Positions 7,107-15,518 of a DNA stretch of 64,000 bases are shown one piece after another. The DNA comes from Hyphomonadaceae bacterium ML37 (GTDB lineage Bacteria; Pseudomonadota; Alphaproteobacteria; Caulobacterales; Maricaulaceae). A program made the translations under genes and the position numbers. The DNA lies in the NCBI GenBank assembly GCA_027627685.1, contig CP091241.1:1675191-1739190 (forward strand). The letters are read 5' to 3'. Every line of letters begins with the position of its first letter. Position 1 is the first letter of the stretch. The notes under the pieces were generated by a model. The model was not told the DNA's origin. It saw only the letters and a program-made list of their open reading frames with translations, and made no database searches.

Positions 7107-8480
7107 TTAGAAGTATTGCAGGCTGACCCGGAACAATTGTTCGACCTTGGACACCGCGCCCTTCAGGGCGAAGAACACCACGCGGTCATTCTCTTCAATC
7201 TGCACCGGTTCCCGGGCGAAATGAACCGCGTCGCCCCGCACCAGCGCGCAGATCGCCACGTCCTCGGGCAGTTCCAGCGCATTCAGGGATTTGCCCACCA
7301 GCGGCGAGGTCGCCAGCGCCACGCCTTCGAGCGCTTCAGCCGCGCCTCCGGCCAGCGATTGCAGGCCGGTGATCCGGCCGCGCCGGATATGCTGGAGAAT
7401 GGTGGAGACCGTCACCTCGCGCGGGTCGATCATGACATTGACGCCCAGCGCGCCGCGCACCGACTTGAACGCCTCTTCATTGACCAGGCAGACCGAGCGC
7501 TCGGCCCCCTCGCCCTTGGCCATCACGGCGCTCAAAAGATTGACCTTGTCGTCATTGGTCAGGCACAGGGCGAGCTCTGCATCCTCAATACCCGCCTCGC
7601 GCAGGATGTCGCGGTCCATGCCGTCGCCGTGCAGCACCACGGTCTTGCGCAGCACATCCGCCGCGCGCTCGGCTTGGGCCTTGTCGCGCTCGATGATTCG
7701 CACCCGCACGCCGCTGACGCGCTCCAGAGCGCGCGCCACATAGAGCCCGATATTGCCCGCGCCCACGATCACCACGCGCCGGGCGCGCTGAGCCGAACGC
7801 CCGAACACATCCAGCGCGCGCTTCACATGGGCGGCCTGGACGCTGACATAGGCGTCATCGCCGGGCATGAGCTGGTCGGTGGCGCCGGGGATGAAGATCG
7901 TCTTGTCGCGCTGAATGCCCACCAGATCGAACCCCAGATCGGGGAACAGCTCCAGCAGCTGATCGCGAGAACTGCCCGCCACCGGCGACTGCTCATCGAC
8001 ACGCAGGCCGAGAATCTGGACGCGCGAATTGGCGAACGGCGCGGTGGCGAAGGCGCCGGGGGTCTCCAGCCTCTGCAGGATGGACCGGCTCACCTCCAGT
8101 TCGGGCGAGATGGTGACATCAATGGGCAGGCCGCCGGTGGAGAACAGATCGCCCCAGCGTTTGTCGAGATAGCTCTGGGCGCGCACCCGCGCGATGCGCG
8201 TGGGCGTATCGAACAGGGTCTTGGCGACCTGGCAGGCCACCATGTTGGTTTCGTCCGAATAGGTGACCGCGACCAGAAGATCGGCATTGGCGATCCCGGC
8301 GCGTTCCAGCACGTCCGGATGGGCCCCATGGCCGACCACGCCGCGCACATCGAGATCGGTGGTCACCTTGTCAATGAGCTCGCGCGACCAGTCCACCACG
8401 GTGACGGCATTGCCCTCGCTGGCGAGCTCACGCGCAATCCCGTGACCGACGCGTCCGGCGCCGCAGACCACCGCTTTCAT
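7107..8480 (-). CDS. trkA: Trk system regulator TrkA
   Basis: 457 residues. TrkA is the cytoplasmic, nucleotide-binding gating subunit of the Trk potassium transporter. Two Rossmann (RCK-N) domains are visible by their dinucleotide loops: GAGRVG at 7-12 and GAGNIG at 240-245, each followed by an RCK-C domain. This matches the usual two-tandem TrkA layout of about 458 residues. Its ATG overlaps the ntrX stop (ATGA), so translation is coupled to the response regulator. Proximity of ntrYX and trkAH is a conserved alphaproteobacterial arrangement. Confidence 0.92.
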   Translation of the reverse strand: MKAVVCGAGRVGHGIARELASEGNAVTVVDWSRELIDKVTTDLDVRGVVGHGAHPDVLERAGIANADLLVAVTYSDETNMVACQVAKTLFDTPTRIARVRAQSYLDKRWGDLFSTGGLPIDVTISPELEVSRSILQRLETPGAFATAPFANSRVQILGLRVDEQSPVAGSSRDQLLELFPDLGFDLVGIQRDKTIFIPGATDQLMPGDDAYVSVQAAHVKRALDVFGRSAQRARRVVIVGAGNIGLYVARALERVSGVRVRIIERDKAQAERAADVLRKTVVLHGDGMDRDILREAGIEDAELALCLTNDDKVNLLSAVMAKGEGAERSVCLVNEEAFKSVRGALGVNVMIDPREVTVSTILQHIRRGRITGLQSLAGGAAEALEGVALATSPLVGKSLNALELPEDVAICALVRGDAVHFAREPVQIEENDRVVFFALKGAVSKVEQLFRVSLQYF

Positions 8481-9889
8481 GACTGGGCGTCCGCGTCAGG
8501 ATCGTCGCCCTCTCCGCGTCCCGGCTCGGCCACGCCCAGCGTCTTGAGCTTGCGATGCAGCGCCGAGCGCTCCATGCCGATGAAGGACGCCGTGCGCGAG
8601 ATATTGCCGCCGAACCGGCTGATCTGCGCGCGCAGATATTCCCGCTCGAAGCTTTCGCGCGCATCGCGCAGCGGCAGGGCGATCATGCGCTCGGCGTCGA
8701 GGCCCGTGCTGGCGCTGGTGGAACGGCCCGCCACCTCGCCCGGCAGATGATCCAGCGTCACCGGCTCGTCGGGACTTCCAGACGCCAGGATCAGCAGGCG
8801 CTCCACGTTATTACGCAGCTGGCGCACATTGCCCGGCCAGTCATGGGCCTGCAGCGCGGCCATGGCGTCCTCGCCGATGCGCCGGCGCGGCAGGCCGGTC
8901 ATGGCGGTCAGGCGTTCGATGAAATGCTCCACCAGATGCGGGATGTCGTCGCGGCGCTCGGCCAGGGTCGGGATCTCGATGGGGACCACCGCCAGGCGGT
9001 GATACAGATCCTCGCGGAACCGGCCCTTGCTGATCAGGCTGCGCAGATCACGCGCCGTGGACGACAGCACGCGCACATTCACTTCCACATCCGCCGCGCC
9101 GCCCACGCGCCGGAAGCGTTGTTCCACCAGCATGCGCAACAGCTTGCCCTGGGTCGCCAGCGGCATGTCGCCGACCTCATCCAGGAACAGCGTCCCGCCA
9201 TGGGCCGCTTCCAGATGCCCGGTGCGCTCCACCACGCCGTCGCGCTCGGCGCCGAACAGCTCCAGCTCCACCCGGTCAGGATCCATCAGCGCGGCGCTGA
9301 CGGGGACGAAATCGCCCTTGGCGCGGCTGGAGGCCGCGTGGATCATGCGCGCGATCAACTCCTTGCCCGTACCCGGCAGTCCGGAGATCAGCACGCGCGA
9401 ATTGGTCGGCGCCACCCGGTCTATGGTCTGGCGCAAGGTGAGGATCGCCGCCGAACGGCCCACCAGATCGGTCTGCATCTCAGAGCGCGCGCGCAGTTCG
9501 GCATTCTCCCGGCGCAGCTGGCTGGCTTCGAGGGCGCGTTCGACCGTGATGAGCAACTTGTCGGATTTGAACGGCTTTTCGATGAAATCGTAGGCGCCTT
9601 TGCGGATGGCCGCCACAGCCGTCTCGATGGTGCCATGGCCTGAGATCACAACCACGGGCAAAAGCGGATCGGTGCGCTTGATCTCGTCCAGCAGCTCGAT
9701 CCCGTCCAGCCGCGAGCCCTGAAGCCAGACATCAAGAATGGCCAGCGAGGGCCGGCGCTGGCGCACGGCGGCCAGCGCACTGTCGGCGTCGCCGGCATAG
9801 CGCGCCTCATAGCCCTCATCCTCCAGAAGCCCGCCGATGAGCTCCCGGATATCGGCCTCGTCGTCCACGATCAGGATATCCCGCGACAT
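8477..9889 (-). CDS. ntrX: Response regulator NtrX
   Basis: 470 residues. The receiver domain has the acidic pair D9-D10, phospho-acceptor D53 (AILDVWL) and K105 (FIEKPF). The AAA+ domain is intact for nucleotide binding: Walker A GLPGTGKE (170-177) and Walker B TLFLDE (233-238). The GAFTGA loop that contacts sigma54 should follow LFG (211-213), but that place reads AERDGVVERTGH. Loss of GAFTGA is known for alphaproteobacterial NtrX, which acts as a sigma70-type regulator. The C-terminal Fis-like helix-turn-helix runs through ISRTASFIGMERSALHRKL. It is the partner of NtrY, encoded five bases upstream. Confidence 0.92.
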   Translation of the reverse strand: MSRDILIVDDEADIRELIGGLLEDEGYEARYAGDADSALAAVRQRRPSLAILDVWLQGSRLDGIELLDEIKRTDPLLPVVVISGHGTIETAVAAIRKGAYDFIEKPFKSDKLLITVERALEASQLRRENAELRARSEMQTDLVGRSAAILTLRQTIDRVAPTNSRVLISGLPGTGKELIARMIHAASSRAKGDFVPVSAALMDPDRVELELFGAERDGVVERTGHLEAAHGGTLFLDEVGDMPLATQGKLLRMLVEQRFRRVGGAADVEVNVRVLSSTARDLRSLISKGRFREDLYHRLAVVPIEIPTLAERRDDIPHLVEHFIERLTAMTGLPRRRIGEDAMAALQAHDWPGNVRQLRNNVERLLILASGSPDEPVTLDHLPGEVAGRSTSASTGLDAERMIALPLRDARESFEREYLRAQISRFGGNISRTASFIGMERSALHRKLKTLGVAEPGRGEGDDPDADAQS

Positions 9890-9894
9890 CAGTA

Positions 9895-12117
9895 TTACGC
9901 CTCCGCACGCGCTTGCGGGCTGTCGAGCCCGGCACGCGTTTCAAGCAAGGGAAAGGCCAAACGCACGACAGCGCCGGTGTCACCCGGCGCGGGATCGTCC
10001 AGATCAAGGCGTCCGCCATGATCCTCCATCACGCGCCGTACGATGGCCAGGCCCAGCCCCGTGCCCTTTTCGCGTGTGGTCATATAGGGCTCGGTCAGGC
10101 GCGCCTTGTCGGCCACCGGCCAGCCGAGGCCATCATCACGCGCCTCGATGAAACCGAAGCCCTCGTGTTCAAACACCCGTACCGCGATCTGGCCCGGCGC
10201 CTTGGCGCTGTCGCGCTCCATGCGCGAGGCGACGCTTTCGGCGGCGTTTTTCAGGATATTGGCCAAAGCCTGGCCCGCCAGTCGGGAGTCGCACTCCACC
10301 AGCGGCCCGGGTTCCGGCCCGTCCAGGGTGAGCCGGATGGACGGAGACGCTACGCGCTGCGCGAAAACGGCCGAGCGGGCAATCTCGCTCAGGTCCGCCG
10401 CCTCCATCTTGGGCGCAGGCATGCGGGCGAAGGATGAGAATTCGTCGACCATGCGCCCGATATCGCTGACCTGACGCACAATCGTGTCGATGCAGCGGTC
10501 AAAGATCTCCAGATCATCCTCATTGACCGTGCGCCGGTATTTGCGCCGCAGGCGTTCGGCTGAAAGCTGGATGGGGGTGAGCGGGTTCTTGATTTCGTGG
10601 GCGATGCGCCGGGCCACATCGCGCCAGGCCGCATTGCGCTGGGCGCCGACCAGACGGGTGACATCGTCAAACGTCAGCACCACGCCGCCCTCTTCGTCGG
10701 GACCTGCGCGCACATTCAGATTCATCACCGCGCCGTCGGCGTTGGGGATGTCGATCTGGCGCTCGGCGATTTCATAAGGCCGGCGCGCCACCTCATCGAC
10801 CACGTCCAGAAACACTGACGCGCCCTCTTCCAGAGGCTGGCCCACCAGCTCCTCGGGCTCATGGCCCAGCATCTGGGCGCCCGCGCGATTGATCAGGGTG
10901 ATGCGCATCTGTGAGTCAAGACCGATCACCCCGGCGCTGACGCCGGTCAGCACGGCCTCGATAAAGGCGCGGCGGCGTTCGTTTTCGGTATTGGTCTCCA
11001 GCAGCGCCTTTCGCTGGCTGGAGAGCTGGCGGGTCATGCGGTTGAAGGCGCGGCCCAGCGCCGCGATCTCGTCATCCTCGCGCGCCACATGCACCCGCAC
11101 GTCCAGATCGCCGCGCCGCACGCGCTCGGCGGCAGACACCAGCCTGCTGACCGGCGCCGTCACCCGCTGGGATGCGCTGAGCGCCAGCCAGACTGCGCCG
11201 ATAAAGATCAGGATCGCCGCCAGCGCGTAGACGATGAAGAAGCTGCCGCGCATCTGTTGCTCGCGCTGCACCGCCTCGCGGAAGGACGCAATGGCCGCCT
11301 GGGGCGCCGACAGCAGCGAAAAGTCCTCGTACCAGACGACATAGAGATAGGCGTCGCCATATTCTGGCATGGCGATCAGCAGGCGCAGATAGTCAGGCGC
11401 ATCGGGGCGCGTCACCGGATCGGAGGCGCCGATATCGCCGTCATTGGCCACTTCGAACATGAAACGGGTCGGCGCGGCGAAGGCCGGCGTATCGGGCGCC
11501 TCGTCGCTGCGCGCCAGCACCGTGGCCTGACTGTCGATCACATAGACCGCCGGAAAATTGCGCAGCATCGCCTGCTGGGTCAGGTAGTTACGATAGAGAA
11601 TGCGGCTTTCCTGCAGACCCTGCACCGCCGCCGGGTCGGACAGGTCTTCAGCCAGCGAGCCCATCTGCAATTGCACAAAGCTCAGCGCCACATTGGGCCA
11701 TTCGCGGCCCAGCTCGGCCGACGCGTCGACCAGGGTGGTCACCCGTTCCCCAAACCAGAATTCAATGCCGCGATTGAGCACCAGGGCGTGAAAGCCCGCC
11801 ATCAGCACCGCCGGCGCAATGGCCGCCACGGCGAACAGGGTGATGAAGCGCATCTGCAGGCGCGGCACGGGTTCGGCGAATTTGCGCCCGCGCAGCTGGC
11901 GGCCCAGACGCAGGGCGACCGCGATGGCAAGGCCGGCGACCACCAGAATCGTGATGGCCAGCAGGGATCGGAATAACAGACCGGTGGGCTCCCAGACCGT
12001 GCCGGCGCTGACCGACATCAGGGCCAGCGCGATCACGCCGCCCGCCGCCATGACGAACACGACGGCGAAGACCGATATCCGCCGAATGGCTGCAGGCGCG
12101 GACAGCGCTGTGGTCAA
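9895..12117 (-). CDS. ntrY: Sensor histidine kinase NtrY
   Basis: 740 residues. NtrY is a membrane nitrogen/redox sensor kinase that phosphorylates NtrX. The N-terminal third has several membrane segments and a periplasmic sensor loop. A HAMP domain follows (SASQRVTAPVSRLVSAAERV), then a PAS domain, a HisKA motif (RRIAHEIKNPLTPIQL) and an HATPase domain with a GTGLGLAIV G-box. The start is TTG at 12117: no ATG occurs in frame before the first membrane helix, and a GGGAG ribosome-binding site (12125-12129 on the complement) lies seven bases away. The 70-base gap separates it from ntrC, so it may have its own promoter. Confidence 0.92.
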   Translation of the reverse strand: MTTALSAPAAIRRISVFAVVFVMAAGGVIALALMSVSAGTVWEPTGLLFRSLLAITILVVAGLAIAVALRLGRQLRGRKFAEPVPRLQMRFITLFAVAAIAPAVLMAGFHALVLNRGIEFWFGERVTTLVDASAELGREWPNVALSFVQLQMGSLAEDLSDPAAVQGLQESRILYRNYLTQQAMLRNFPAVYVIDSQATVLARSDEAPDTPAFAAPTRFMFEVANDGDIGASDPVTRPDAPDYLRLLIAMPEYGDAYLYVVWYEDFSLLSAPQAAIASFREAVQREQQMRGSFFIVYALAAILIFIGAVWLALSASQRVTAPVSRLVSAAERVRRGDLDVRVHVAREDDEIAALGRAFNRMTRQLSSQRKALLETNTENERRRAFIEAVLTGVSAGVIGLDSQMRITLINRAGAQMLGHEPEELVGQPLEEGASVFLDVVDEVARRPYEIAERQIDIPNADGAVMNLNVRAGPDEEGGVVLTFDDVTRLVGAQRNAAWRDVARRIAHEIKNPLTPIQLSAERLRRKYRRTVNEDDLEIFDRCIDTIVRQVSDIGRMVDEFSSFARMPAPKMEAADLSEIARSAVFAQRVASPSIRLTLDGPEPGPLVECDSRLAGQALANILKNAAESVASRMERDSAKAPGQIAVRVFEHEGFGFIEARDDGLGWPVADKARLTEPYMTTREKGTGLGLAIVRRVMEDHGGRLDLDDPAPGDTGAVVRLAFPLLETRAGLDSPQARAEA

Positions 12118-12187: not shown

Positions 12188-13462
12188 TCAGGACGCAGTC
12201 TCGCCATCCAGCCCCAGCGCGGCAAGCCGGCGGGCGAAGGTATTGCGGTTCATGCCCAGGCGCTGGGCCGCGTCCTGACGCACCCCGCCCGCGGCTTCCA
12301 GCGCGGCGTTCAGGGCCGCGCGCTCGGCGGTTTCCAGCACATCGCGCAGCGAGTCAGCAGATCCCGCGGCCCAGGCCTGCGCGAGGCGGCGCACGGCTGC
12401 GTCTTCCAGCGCTTCGCGCGCATCCGGCGGCGTGGGGCCGGCCATGGCCCGCGCGATCTCGTCCGGGCCCACCTCACCGCGCAGACCTTGCGCCCGGATG
12501 CGCTGCGCTGTCCGTTCGATCTGCAGCACCTCGCCCTCCCAGGCTTGCGCGTTCACGAAGGCAGCGCCCTCGGGGCTGAGCGTCCAGCCGCCCTGCCCAC
12601 CCTGTTCCAGGAACCAGGCGAACAGCCGCGCGCGGTCATCGCCGCGCGCCCGCACCGATGGAAGATTGACATACCCCACCGCCAGACGCTCGATCAGGGC
12701 CCGGGGCAGGTGATCGCGCACGCCGGCAGACGCAGTCGCGATCAGGCGGGGCGACGACGCCCCGGGGGCTTCCAACGCCTCCAGCACCCAATCCTGCACA
12801 TCGTCTGCCCACCGTTCAGCCCGGCGCATCAGCAACACCCCGCCCGCCGCCTCACTCAGCAGCGCCGGTCCATCGCGCCGCGCCCGGTCCGGCCCGGCCT
12901 CGACCAGCGGAGCGGACGTTCCGGACTGGCGGTGCAGCCAGCGGCCCGCCGCCGCACGACCGGCCCCTTCAGGCCCGGTGATCAGCACCGGCGCAGACGT
13001 GCGCGCCAGCCGGGCCAGCGCCTGAAACGCTTCCTGCATGGCCGGGGCGCGCCCTACCAGGCCGGACATGTCCTCTTCGCGGGCAGAGGTCCGTGGGCCA
13101 GCAGGTCTCAGCGCTTTGTCAAGAATCTCCACCAACTCATCGAGATTAAACGGCTTTGGCAGATACTCGTAGGCGCCGCGCCGGGCCGCGCCCAGCGCTG
13201 TGGCCGCTGTTGTCTGCGCGCTCATCACGACAACCGGGGCATCGGGGCGCAGGCGGGCGAGCTCGTCCAGCCGGTCGAGAAAATTCTCCCGGCCGAGCAA
13301 TACATCGGCCACCAGAGCATCGGCTTCACGCCGGATCATCCGGTCCATGGCTGTATCGGGCGAGGCCGTGGCGCGCACGTCGAACCCGGCGCGCGACAGG
13401 GCCTTGGAGATCACAAAGCGCAGCGAGTCGTCGTCTTCCAGCACCAGCACGCGTCGTGTCAT
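12188..13462 (-). CDS. ntrC: NtrC with degenerate AAA+ domain
   Basis: 424 residues against about 470-480 for typical NtrC. The receiver looks functional: D10-D12, phospho-acceptor D53, S81 and K103 (YLPKPF). The central domain is eroded. Walker A reads GPEGAGRAA (163-171), with R169 replacing the lysine. The Walker B position reads GGVLLMRRAE, with arginines 213-214 where Asp-Glu should be. The stretch that should hold ELFGHEKGAFTGA is missing. The Fis-type helix-turn-helix (QDAAQRLGMNRNTFARRLAALG, split across 397-417) is kept. So it should bind DNA and be phosphorylated by NtrB, but cannot hydrolyse ATP or drive sigma54 in the classic way. Position between ntrB (four-base overlap) and ntrY fixes its identity. 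Confidence 0.83.
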   Translation of the reverse strand: MTRRVLVLEDDDSLRFVISKALSRAGFDVRATASPDTAMDRMIRREADALVADVLLGRENFLDRLDELARLRPDAPVVVMSAQTTAATALGAARRGAYEYLPKPFNLDELVEILDKALRPAGPRTSAREEDMSGLVGRAPAMQEAFQALARLARTSAPVLITGPEGAGRAAAGRWLHRQSGTSAPLVEAGPDRARRDGPALLSEAAGGVLLMRRAERWADDVQDWVLEALEAPGASSPRLIATASAGVRDHLPRALIERLAVGYVNLPSVRARGDDRARLFAWFLEQGGQGGWTLSPEGAAFVNAQAWEGEVLQIERTAQRIRAQGLRGEVGPDEIARAMAGPTPPDAREALEDAAVRRLAQAWAAGSADSLRDVLETAERAALNAALEAAGGVRQDAAQRLGMNRNTFARRLAALGLDGETAS

Positions 13463-14499
13463 GGGGCCTCGCTCCCGGCGTCGCGCAGATAGAGATGGAA
13501 CACGGTCCGTCCCGGGCGGCTGTCAAACTCCACCCCGCCGCCATGAATGTCCGCGATGCGCGCCACCAGGGCAAGGCCGAGCCCCTCGCCCGCCGGTTTG
13601 CCGGTCACGAAGGGGTTGAACACGGCGTCACGCAAAGCCTCCGGCACGCCAGGGCCGTCATCATGGACCGAGATTTCAAGACGCGCATCGGGCGCCGGCG
13701 CGCCGGGCCGTGGCTGGCGATAGCGTGTGGTGACCACCACATCGCCTCCGTCATCGCCCAACGCCTCAGCAGCGTTGACCAGAAGGTTGAGGACGGCCTG
13801 CAGCACCAGATCCCGGTCGGCCAGGGCATCGGGTATGGACGGATCAAACCGCTCCTGCCAGCTCACCTGCGCGCCCGAGCTGGCCATGGCCGAGCGCACG
13901 GCTTCGCGCACCAGCACATGCAAATTCACCGGGGCGAAGTCCTGTGGCGCGATATCCCCGATATGGCACCAGCGCTCGGCGATCCGGCGCGCGCGGTCGG
14001 TCTCTGTCATGATCAGCTGGGCGAGCTCACGGGTCTCTTCATCCCCGCCCGCCGCGATCAGCTGCGCCGCCCCGCGCGCGCCGGCCAGCGGGTTTTTCAG
14101 CTCATGGGCCAGCATGCGGCCGAACCCGGCCGCGGCGCTGGCTGCCGTGTCGCCGCGCGGACTGGCCGAGCTTTCCGGCCAGGGACGCAGGCTCAGGCAC
14201 GCGCCCTCACCGTCCGGCGCAGCGTCCACCGCCAGACGCATGGGCCCGTCCTGCGTCGCGACCGGCAGATCATGGGCGAACACCTCGCGCCCTTCCGCAA
14301 TGGCGCGCAGGGCCAGCGGGGCCGCTGCAGCGCCCGCCGGCCCGCATGAGGCGAGCAGTTGGCCGGTCAGCCGGCGTCTGGAGCGTCCGAACAGGATTTC
14401 AGCACGCGGATTCACGTGCACCACAACCCCCTCACCATCGACGAGAACCAGCCCGACCGGGGCCGCCTCGCCCAGCCGGTCTCCCGCCTCGCCTGTCAT
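13459..14499 (-). CDS. ntrB: Nitrogen sensor kinase NtrB
   Basis: 346 residues from the ATG at 14499, chosen because it overlaps the dusB stop (ATGA) and gives the usual NtrB N-terminus; a longer in-frame reading into dusB is an artefact of composition. It is a soluble kinase and phosphatase of NtrC governed by PII. A PAS domain ([20 protein letters not shown]) precedes the H-box [10 protein letters not shown], the N-box [10 protein letters not shown]1 DDGPGVP and G2 GEGLGLALV. All catalytic motifs look intact, in contrast with the eroded ATPase of its partner NtrC, whose start overlaps this stop. Confidence 0.9.
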
Positions 14500-15518
14500 G
14501 CGGCGGCGCGGTCGCAGTGTTGCGTCACGAACATGTCCATGGCCACACGCACCTCGTCCGCCGTGCGCGGCTGGCACACACTGGCCCGCCAGGCGCGGGC
14601 GGCGTCCACGTCGCCGATGGCCCAGTCGATGAAGCTCGCCAGATGCTTGCGCATCATGCGCACGCCCAGCTCCTCGCCATACAGCGTCACGCTGTCGCTC
14701 AGCGCCTCGCACAGCGACTGTGCGCCGACAGTGACCGGCGGCTCGCGCAAATCACCGCCATCCATCAGCGCATCGGCGATGGCGCCGGGCAACCAGGGGC
14801 GGCCCTGAGAGGCCCGCCCGATCATGACGCCGTCCGCCCCCGATTGGGCCAGCGCCTCGCGCGCATCGTCTGGCGTGGCGATATCGCCATTGACGATGAC
14901 GGGAATGCTCACCGCCTCACGAATCGCGCGCACGGCGGCCCAGTCGGCAACGCCCGTATAGAACTGCTGGCGCGTGCGGCCATGAATGGTGACCATCGCC
15001 GCGCCTGCGCGTTCGGCCCTCGCGGCCAGATCGGGCGCGTTCAGGCTGTCATGGTCCCAGCCGAGGCGCATCTTCACCGTCACAGGCTTCGACGTGGCGC
15101 CAATTGTCGCCTCGATCAGGCTCTGGGCGTGATCGAGATCGCGCATCAGCGCTGACCCCGACAGGCCCTTCGTCACCTGCCGCGCCGGGCAGCCCATATT
15201 GATGTCGATGATATCGGCGCCGGCCTCTTCGGCCAGTTTCGCGCCGACGGCCATCCATTTGGCTTCGCGCCCGGCCAGCTGGATCACGTGTGGTCCGCAG
15301 CCGCCATCGGCCTTCATGCGCCGGATCACGTCCTTGCGGCCCTGGGCCAGCGTCTCGCAGGCGACCATCTCGGTCACCACCAGCCCGGCGCCGAAACGCC
15401 AGGCCTGGCGCCGAAACGGCCAGTCGGTGACGCCCGACATGGGCGCGAGCACAACCGGCCGGTCCACCTGGACCGGGCCGATCTTGAAACTGTTCAGGGC
15501 TGCGCCGCGCTTGGTCAT
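14496..15518 (-). CDS. dusB: tRNA-dihydrouridine synthase DusB
   Basis: 340 residues. It reduces uridine to dihydrouridine in the tRNA D-loop with FMN and NADPH. The TIM-barrel motifs are clear: [16 protein letters not shown] at the start, [13 protein letters not shown] with the catalytic cysteine, [36 protein letters not shown] and [11 protein letters not shown]. It is the NifR3-type gene that heads the ntrBC operon in many alphaproteobacteria, and its stop overlaps the ntrB start. It is divergent from ispDF. Confidence 0.93.

Follow-up and report, generated by a model that had tools for sequence, protein, structure and literature searches.

Introduction

Can NtrC remain a switchable regulator of nitrogen genes after its AAA+ core has lost the residues for ATPase function? 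The question is raised by an ntrC gene in a 64-kb stretch of DNA (called the window here) from a host genome of one contig and 3,038,461 bases, family Maricaulaceae. The domain order of its product (receiver, AAA+ core, Fis-type helix-turn-helix) is that of a sigma54 activator (a bEBP with a receiver). A preliminary description, made from the sequence of the window, had proposed that the core is dead and that the protein is a phosphorylation-switched DNA-binding protein working with sigma70 or as a repressor.

The closest point of reference is Caulobacter crescentus NtrC, which North et al. (2023; PMC10274813) describe as loop-less, acting at sigma70 promoters, and activating glnBA and a glnK/AmtB-family operon. 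The preliminary description had presented this protein as lacking GAFTGA only, which agrees with that account. Caulobacter strains carrying NtrC K178A or D235A do not grow on ammonium medium, so these Walker residues matter there despite the absent GAFTGA; the authors call the mechanism unclear, and report that neither Rhodobacter capsulatus NtrC nor E. coli NtrC complements Caulobacter (PMC10274813).

The ntrC locus and its altered AAA+ core

In the window the gene order is dusB, ntrB, ntrC, ntrY, ntrX, all on the minus strand, with the following features:

12188..13462, minus strand: dead-core NtrC, 424 aa, ATG start (open reading frame, Pfam, NCBIfam and alignment)
13109..13462, minus strand: receiver domain, aa 1-118, with the D10 D11 acidic pocket, phospho-acceptor D53 (13304-13306), S81 and K103 (Pfam Response_reg)
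12953..12976, minus strand: Walker A position, GPEGAGRA, aa 163-170, with R169 for Lys (alignment)
12821..12826, minus strand: R213-R214 in place of the Walker B Asp-Glu (alignment)
12518..12541, minus strand: sensor II position, aa 308-315, with E311 for Asn and L313 for Arg (alignment)
12209..12352, minus strand: Fis-type helix-turn-helix (HTH), about aa 371-418, with an NRNTFARRL segment (Pfam HTH_8 and alignment with E. coli NtrC)
13459..14505, minus strand: ntrB, a PAS-HisKA-HATPase kinase of 348 aa whose stop overlaps the ntrC start by 4 bp (open reading frame, domains)
9895..12117, minus strand: ntrY kinase (NtrY_N, HAMP, HisKA and HATPase)
8477..9889, minus strand: ntrX, with Walker A and B intact and the GAFTGA loop absent (domains; NtrX equivalog at 778.9 bits against a cut-off of 600; alignment)
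14496..15518, minus strand: dusB, the upstream neighbour of ntrB (domain match)

The ntrB-ntrC pair adjoins ntrY-ntrX, which is the neighbourhood of an NtrC orthologue. The adjoining NtrB partner, and the receiver and HTH that had been called intact, are borne out by the domain searches, with Pfam scores of 64.2 bits (Response_reg) and 46.2 bits (Fis HTH_8) for NtrC itself. Its core is recognised in part: Sigma54_activ_2 gives 40.7 bits, and Sigma54_activat is matched at 49 of its 168 positions with 27.0 bits, whereas the NtrX core matches it across 168 of 168 with 168 bits. The score against the NCBIfam NtrC equivalog TIGR01818 (225.2 bits) is below the cut-off of 558.6, yet this is the best NCBIfam match. 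In a tree built from NtrC rows only, with other bEBPs absent, the protein groups with NtrC of the family, and an Oceanicaulis sp. MAG protein (L077) matches it at 77%.

We aligned the protein with E. coli NtrC and with 79 named NtrC-type proteins (L078-L156, the best 80 matches less the Oceanicaulis one). In agreement with the preliminary description, R169 falls at the Walker A Lys, R213-R214 at the Walker B Asp-Glu, and a gap at the GAFTGA segment. The named proteins have the Walker A Lys and Walker B Asp-Glu in 79/79 and a GAFTGA-type loop in 78/79. Sensor II is also changed, from WPGNVRQL in E. coli to WEGEVLQI; of the two arginine-finger positions, the first has Pro and the second remains Arg. 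E. coli NtrC has 469 residues, 45 more than the window protein, and the stretch from Walker A to sensor II accounts for 40 of this difference; the earlier estimate of about 50 missing residues was thus a fair one. The window NtrC is without the bEBP hallmarks (GAFTGA loop, Walker A Lys and Walker B Asp-Glu), and its residues predict an absence of ATPase activity. The Lys-to-Arg change at Walker A is conservative, and the P-loop glycines are invariant in the clade defined below.

Its best solved relative in sequence terms is a full-length NtrX (PDB 5m7n, presumably from Brucella), a paralogue that matches with 116.3 bits over residues 3-418 and, by alignment, keeps the Walker A Lys and Walker B acids, unlike the window NtrC. 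In the window itself, NtrX (8477-9889) is likewise without the GAFTGA loop, but unlike its paralogue next door it retains both Walker motifs, Lys in A and Asp-Glu in B.

Judged from its sequence, the window protein is a variant of GAFTGA-less NtrC, differing from the Caulobacter type by its lost Walker residues. We found no description of an NtrC without Walker motifs in the titles and abstract openings of the open-access papers listed (subscription papers being mostly outside this search), and no open-access paper joining NtrC and Maricaulis.

Other sigma54 activators in the genome

The Pfam core model matches six places in the one-contig genome: this ntrC (49 positions only), NtrX, FlbD, a 541-aa bEBP, and two weak matches that by eye read as Clp-type ATPases. 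A second canonical ntrC, the possibility that had been set against the dead-core reading, was not found among these six matches. The 541-aa bEBP (G000:C1:471782-473404) was considered for this place and rejected; its best match is the ntrC model, at 430.4 bits against the cut-off of 558.6. It has orthologues of 62-67% identity in 7/7 sampled genomes of other families of the order (f2-f4); since in five of these seven genomes NtrC itself is intact at the Walker A Lys and the Walker B Asp-Glu (K-D-E), it is a separate protein. By elimination from the Caulobacter bEBPs (NtrC, NtrX, FlbD and TacA; North et al. 2023, PMC10274813), it is probably TacA. FlbD exceeds its own cut-off (780.9 against 750 bits), and both FlbD and the 541-aa protein have GAFTGA-type loops and intact Walker motifs. 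Since rpoN is also present in the genome, sigma54 activation can take place in the cell without this NtrC.

A clade of dead-core proteins and the likely order of erosion

The family search covered 137 genomes, and 70 NtrC proteins were scored (the window protein, 29 other loci returned and 40 fetched). A dead core is found in 24 of them, from five genera (g1, 14; g6, 6; g15, 2; g14, 1; g19, 1). All 24 share R169, an Arg where Walker B has its Asp, and a Glu (E311) in place of the sensor II Asn; at the position of the Walker B Glu, 23 have Arg and one has Asp. Less uniform is the loss of the sensor II Arg (22/24), of the first arginine-finger Arg (21/24) and of the second (8/24), the latter position being still Arg in 16/24. 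The Walker A Lys and sensor II Asn are kept by 80/80 other NtrC of the same comparison table. As the same changes at Walker A, the Walker B Asp and the sensor II Asn recur in 24/24 proteins of five genera, the substitutions exceed chance. All 24 keep the receiver residues that correspond to E. coli D11, D12, D54 and K104, and at the T82 position 23 have Ser and one has Thr.

The 24 proteins form one clade (support 98, or 97 with the longest row omitted), and its sister is g13 (joint-group support 91, then 100 with that row omitted); because the trees are quick ones with long branches, finer placement is unsure. In g13, the Walker A Lys is kept and Walker B is Leu-Arg (11/11). Separate changes at Walker B are seen in g17 (Asp-Arg, 6/6) and in g18 (Arg-Arg, 4/8), and the other 21 proteins of the family keep K-D-E. 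Relatives with intact motifs, which the preliminary description had named as a finding against it, do not occur among the 24 of the clade.

That description had also suggested scoring Walker A, Walker B and GAFTGA across the Caulobacterales. We searched 200 genomes from 41 genera of the order. Of the 29 genera lying outside the family, 20 contributed a single NtrC each; the remaining nine (the f5 genera, one of f3 and one of f4), whose best matches were only in the NtrX range, were left out. In this sample the loop is absent in 20/20 and the Walker A Lys present in 20/20. K-D-E is kept in f2 (7/7) and f3 (4/4), and Walker B is altered in f4 (9/9); the 20 and the nine include L256, whose standing as an NtrC is doubtful (a very long branch and a score of 135 bits to the query) and which was omitted from the reduced tree. 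Because the loop is lost throughout this sample with the Lys kept, and Walker B is altered in some groups, the likely order of erosion was the loop first, then Walker B, and then Walker A and the sensor II Asn together.

Several observations lie beside this series. The g13 proteins (L031-L041) and f4 proteins such as L238, L240 and L243, with the loop gone, Walker B altered and the Lys kept, are intermediates useful for experiments. Four g18 proteins (L071-L074) combine Walker B Arg-Arg with a kept Walker A Lys, and g18 overall has changed receiver acidic-pocket residues; g18 is possibly a second, independent route of erosion. NtrC may be absent from two genera of the family (g4 and g8), from g21 in f3 and from the f5 genomes sampled, in all of which the best matches score only as high as NtrX would. 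An open frame of 775 aa (L027) was considered as an ntrB-ntrC fusion and rejected, its upstream part being without similarity to NtrB.

Selection rather than decay

A gene whose product has lost its catalytic residues and part of a domain might simply be decaying. However, the frames are open in all 24 dead-core proteins scored, and dN/dS is low across receiver, core and HTH. In eleven pairs, the receiver gave 0.007-0.102 and the HTH 0.019-0.300; the core gave 0.041-0.185 in ten, the eleventh being saturated there, and two further pairs have a core dS > 1.5, which makes their core dN/dS rough. Among 23 sequences (g1, g6, g14 and g15), 27/206 residues of the core, 48/118 of the receiver and 12/50 of the HTH are invariant, the core residues including G163, P164, G166, G168, R169, R174, R213, R214, W218, W308 and E311. 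This invariance, together with the low dN/dS, marks the replacements as conserved features. The dead core is old and selected, its novel residues being common to five genera, and we give practically no credence to decay; the preliminary description had argued the same from the intact frame and good receiver, and the low dN/dS and the novel residues now back it.

Paired sites and promoters at glnB and amtB

In the host genome glnB is followed by glnA (genes checked by Pfam), and the main ammonium-transporter gene lies as follows:

2380475-2381680 of the host genome: amtB

We examined the glnB upstreams of 43 genomes of the family, with expected counts from dinucleotide shuffles. The strict pattern is a pair of YGC-N11-GCR palindromes with a 4-bp gap and hence a 21-bp pitch. 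In the genus, 13/14 genomes have it (expected 0.17), beginning at -125 to -128 relative to the ATG, and 14/14 have a relaxed pattern (0.34 expected). Elsewhere, strict glnB pairs are present in g13 (8/8), g15 (2/2), g14 (1/1) and g6 (1/6), and in neither the g19 genome (0/1) nor eight other genera of the family (0/11). Six of the seven g6 and g19 genomes therefore fail the strict pattern; in five of the six g6 genomes a pair does stand at -128 or -129, with ACA as one half-site, and the one g19 genome has no clear glnB pair. Upstream of amtB the strict pair is found in 14/14 genomes of the genus (0.10 expected), counting the main gene and leaving out a second amtB-like gene of some genomes (L273-L278). 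Alternative gaps of 0-15 bp gave 0-4 matches per set.

The E. coli glnA upstream has two sites of the same GC-N11-GC form, which we take to be its NtrC sites. Judging by the motif, candidate NtrC-type sites are thus present at nitrogen genes, as for an NtrC orthologue, although the pairs could belong to a factor other than NtrC. In families f2-f4 (extra P-II matches left out), a strict pair is present in 4/23 glnB upstreams, at -171 to -197, with further partial pairs seen by eye. Pairs are thus not tied to the dead core, and the site pair may be older than the ATPase loss. An initial genome-wide site pattern was rejected as unspecific (61 matches against 36 in a reversed control); its first site was restricted to GCA, which excluded the amtB pair.

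Two weaker P-II matches in the host genome, at G000:C1:181092-181385 (54.0 bits) and 1938730-1939011 (43.2 bits), are not near amtB. One assembly of the same genus (G088; 1.7 Mb, about 240 contigs, 91% complete) is without this NtrC type, glnB and amtB, as if the nitrogen-control set had been lost together; the incomplete assembly could contribute.

When 26 glnB upstreams were aligned ungapped on the pair, information was high at TTG, 75 bp after the pair start, and at TAGCGT after a 16-bp spacer, most other columns being below 0.5 bit; possession of the pair was the criterion for choosing these rows, which biases the pair columns and leaves the promoter columns unbiased. The full element (TTG-N3-N16-TAGCGT) occurs in 13/14 upstreams of the genus. 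At amtB, a CTGAC element (14/14) starts 75 bp after the pair start in 13 upstreams and 74 bp in one, and no matching -10 element stands out in these 14. The -35 elements of glnB and amtB are putatively sigma70-like, and the glnB -10 element, TAGCGT, departs from the textbook sigma70 box. A consistent sigma54 site is absent from the 28 upstreams of the genus, where the scores are 7 or less in 27 and 8 in one (glnB L166, at -182, off the promoter); the E. coli glnA control scores 9/10. A sigma70 working mode, as had been proposed for this NtrC, agrees with the conservation of the sites and with the putative sigma70-like promoters of glnBA and amtB.

A proposed mechanism, weighed against its rivals

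What, then, might a dead-core NtrC do? We consider it probable that this NtrC orthologue is a phosphorylation-switched regulator without ATPase that works through sigma70-type promoters of glnBA and amtB and probably activates them. We infer that NtrB would phosphorylate D53, and that phosphorylated NtrC would then sit, as paired dimers, on the two 17-bp palindromes that precede glnBA and amtB with a spacing of two helical turns. Bound NtrC would change, and probably activate, transcription by sigma70-type RNA polymerase from promoters in which 75 bp separate the pair start from the start of the -35 element. The AAA+ domain would serve as a folded scaffold for dimer-dimer contact, and salt bridges between the new arginines and E311 perhaps hold its fold in place of bound ATP.

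The lost residues leave room for other uses of the core. One is that ATP or ADP is still bound, unhydrolysed, as a structural lock, by analogy with R. capsulatus NtrC, which is described as needing ATP binding and not hydrolysis (PMC10274813). The conservative Lys-to-Arg change and the invariance of G163, G166, G168, R169, R213 and R214 in 23/23 sequences would suit such a lock, but the Walker B acids that serve Mg-ATP are Arg-Arg in 23/24 proteins and Arg-Asp in one, and the losses of the sensor II Arg (22/24) and first arginine-finger Arg (21/24) also speak against it, so that we regard a lock as rather unlikely. A bolder idea is that the pocket has been rebuilt, the P-loop with R169, R174, R213, R214 and E311 forming a Mg-free site for an anionic ligand, such as an alarmone or a cyclic dinucleotide. 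In VfmH, arginines of the core, one of them beside Walker A, are described as needed for c-di-GMP binding (PMC10714721), which makes a re-used pocket in the window NtrC conceivable; we hold it to be a long shot. In FleQ and VfmH, Walker A and B are described as conserved, and VfmH hydrolyses ATP (PMC10714721), unlike what the window NtrC residues would suggest. Were the rebuilt pocket real, this NtrC would be a two-input regulator, reading NtrB phosphorylation and a nucleotide signal.

Other readings concern the function of the protein as a whole. A subunit without ATPase might join mixed rings with an ATPase-competent bEBP such as the adjoining NtrX, whose Walker motifs are intact. NtrX is likewise without a GAFTGA loop, however, and the window NtrC is without the first arginine-finger Arg and 40 core residues, and such rings seem to us very improbable. 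The protein might instead be mainly a repressor or a chromosome-structuring DNA-binding protein, with activation of glnBA and amtB lost or minor. Against this, a fixed spacing separates the candidate sites from the -35 element downstream of them at both nitrogen genes, and such an upstream position is the usual one for activators. In its favour, Caulobacter NtrC is described as also repressing, and 37/51 of its sites as overlapping GapR sites (PMC10274813); overall, we judge a mainly repressing or structuring role improbable.

Comparison with known systems and significance

A phosphorylation-switched NtrC without ATPase would resemble, and depart from, several described proteins. Like Caulobacter crescentus NtrC as described by North et al. 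(2023; PMC10274813), the window NtrC has lost the loop and is encoded in a cluster with ntrB and ntrY-ntrX; Caulobacter NtrC keeps the Walker A Lys and Walker B Asp, whereas the window protein has other residues in place of the Walker A Lys, both Walker B acids, the sensor II Arg and the Arg of the first arginine finger. By the description in the same source (PMC10274813), Rhodobacter capsulatus NtrC has also lost the GAFTGA loop and activates with sigma70, but ATP binding is essential there, whereas the window NtrC is without the usual nucleotide-binding and Mg residues. Vibrio cholerae VspR, compared again by its description (PMC10274813), is a GAFTGA-less bEBP at sigma70 promoters that is reportedly ATP-independent; it reportedly needs no phosphorylation, in contrast to the switch by phosphorylation proposed here.

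The clade is naturally without the two Walker residues that are K178 and D235 in Caulobacter NtrC (PMC10274813), and offers a natural test of why Caulobacter NtrC needs its Walker residues for the same job. As the clade retains NtrC-type DNA sites after a stepwise loss of the engine, domain swaps could show what ATP does in these proteins and what has replaced it. We appear to be looking at an AAA+ response regulator turning into a simpler DNA-binding switch. Despite the lost ATPase residues, NtrC seems to have been retained in the host bacterium and its close relatives as a DNA-binding protein that can be switched.
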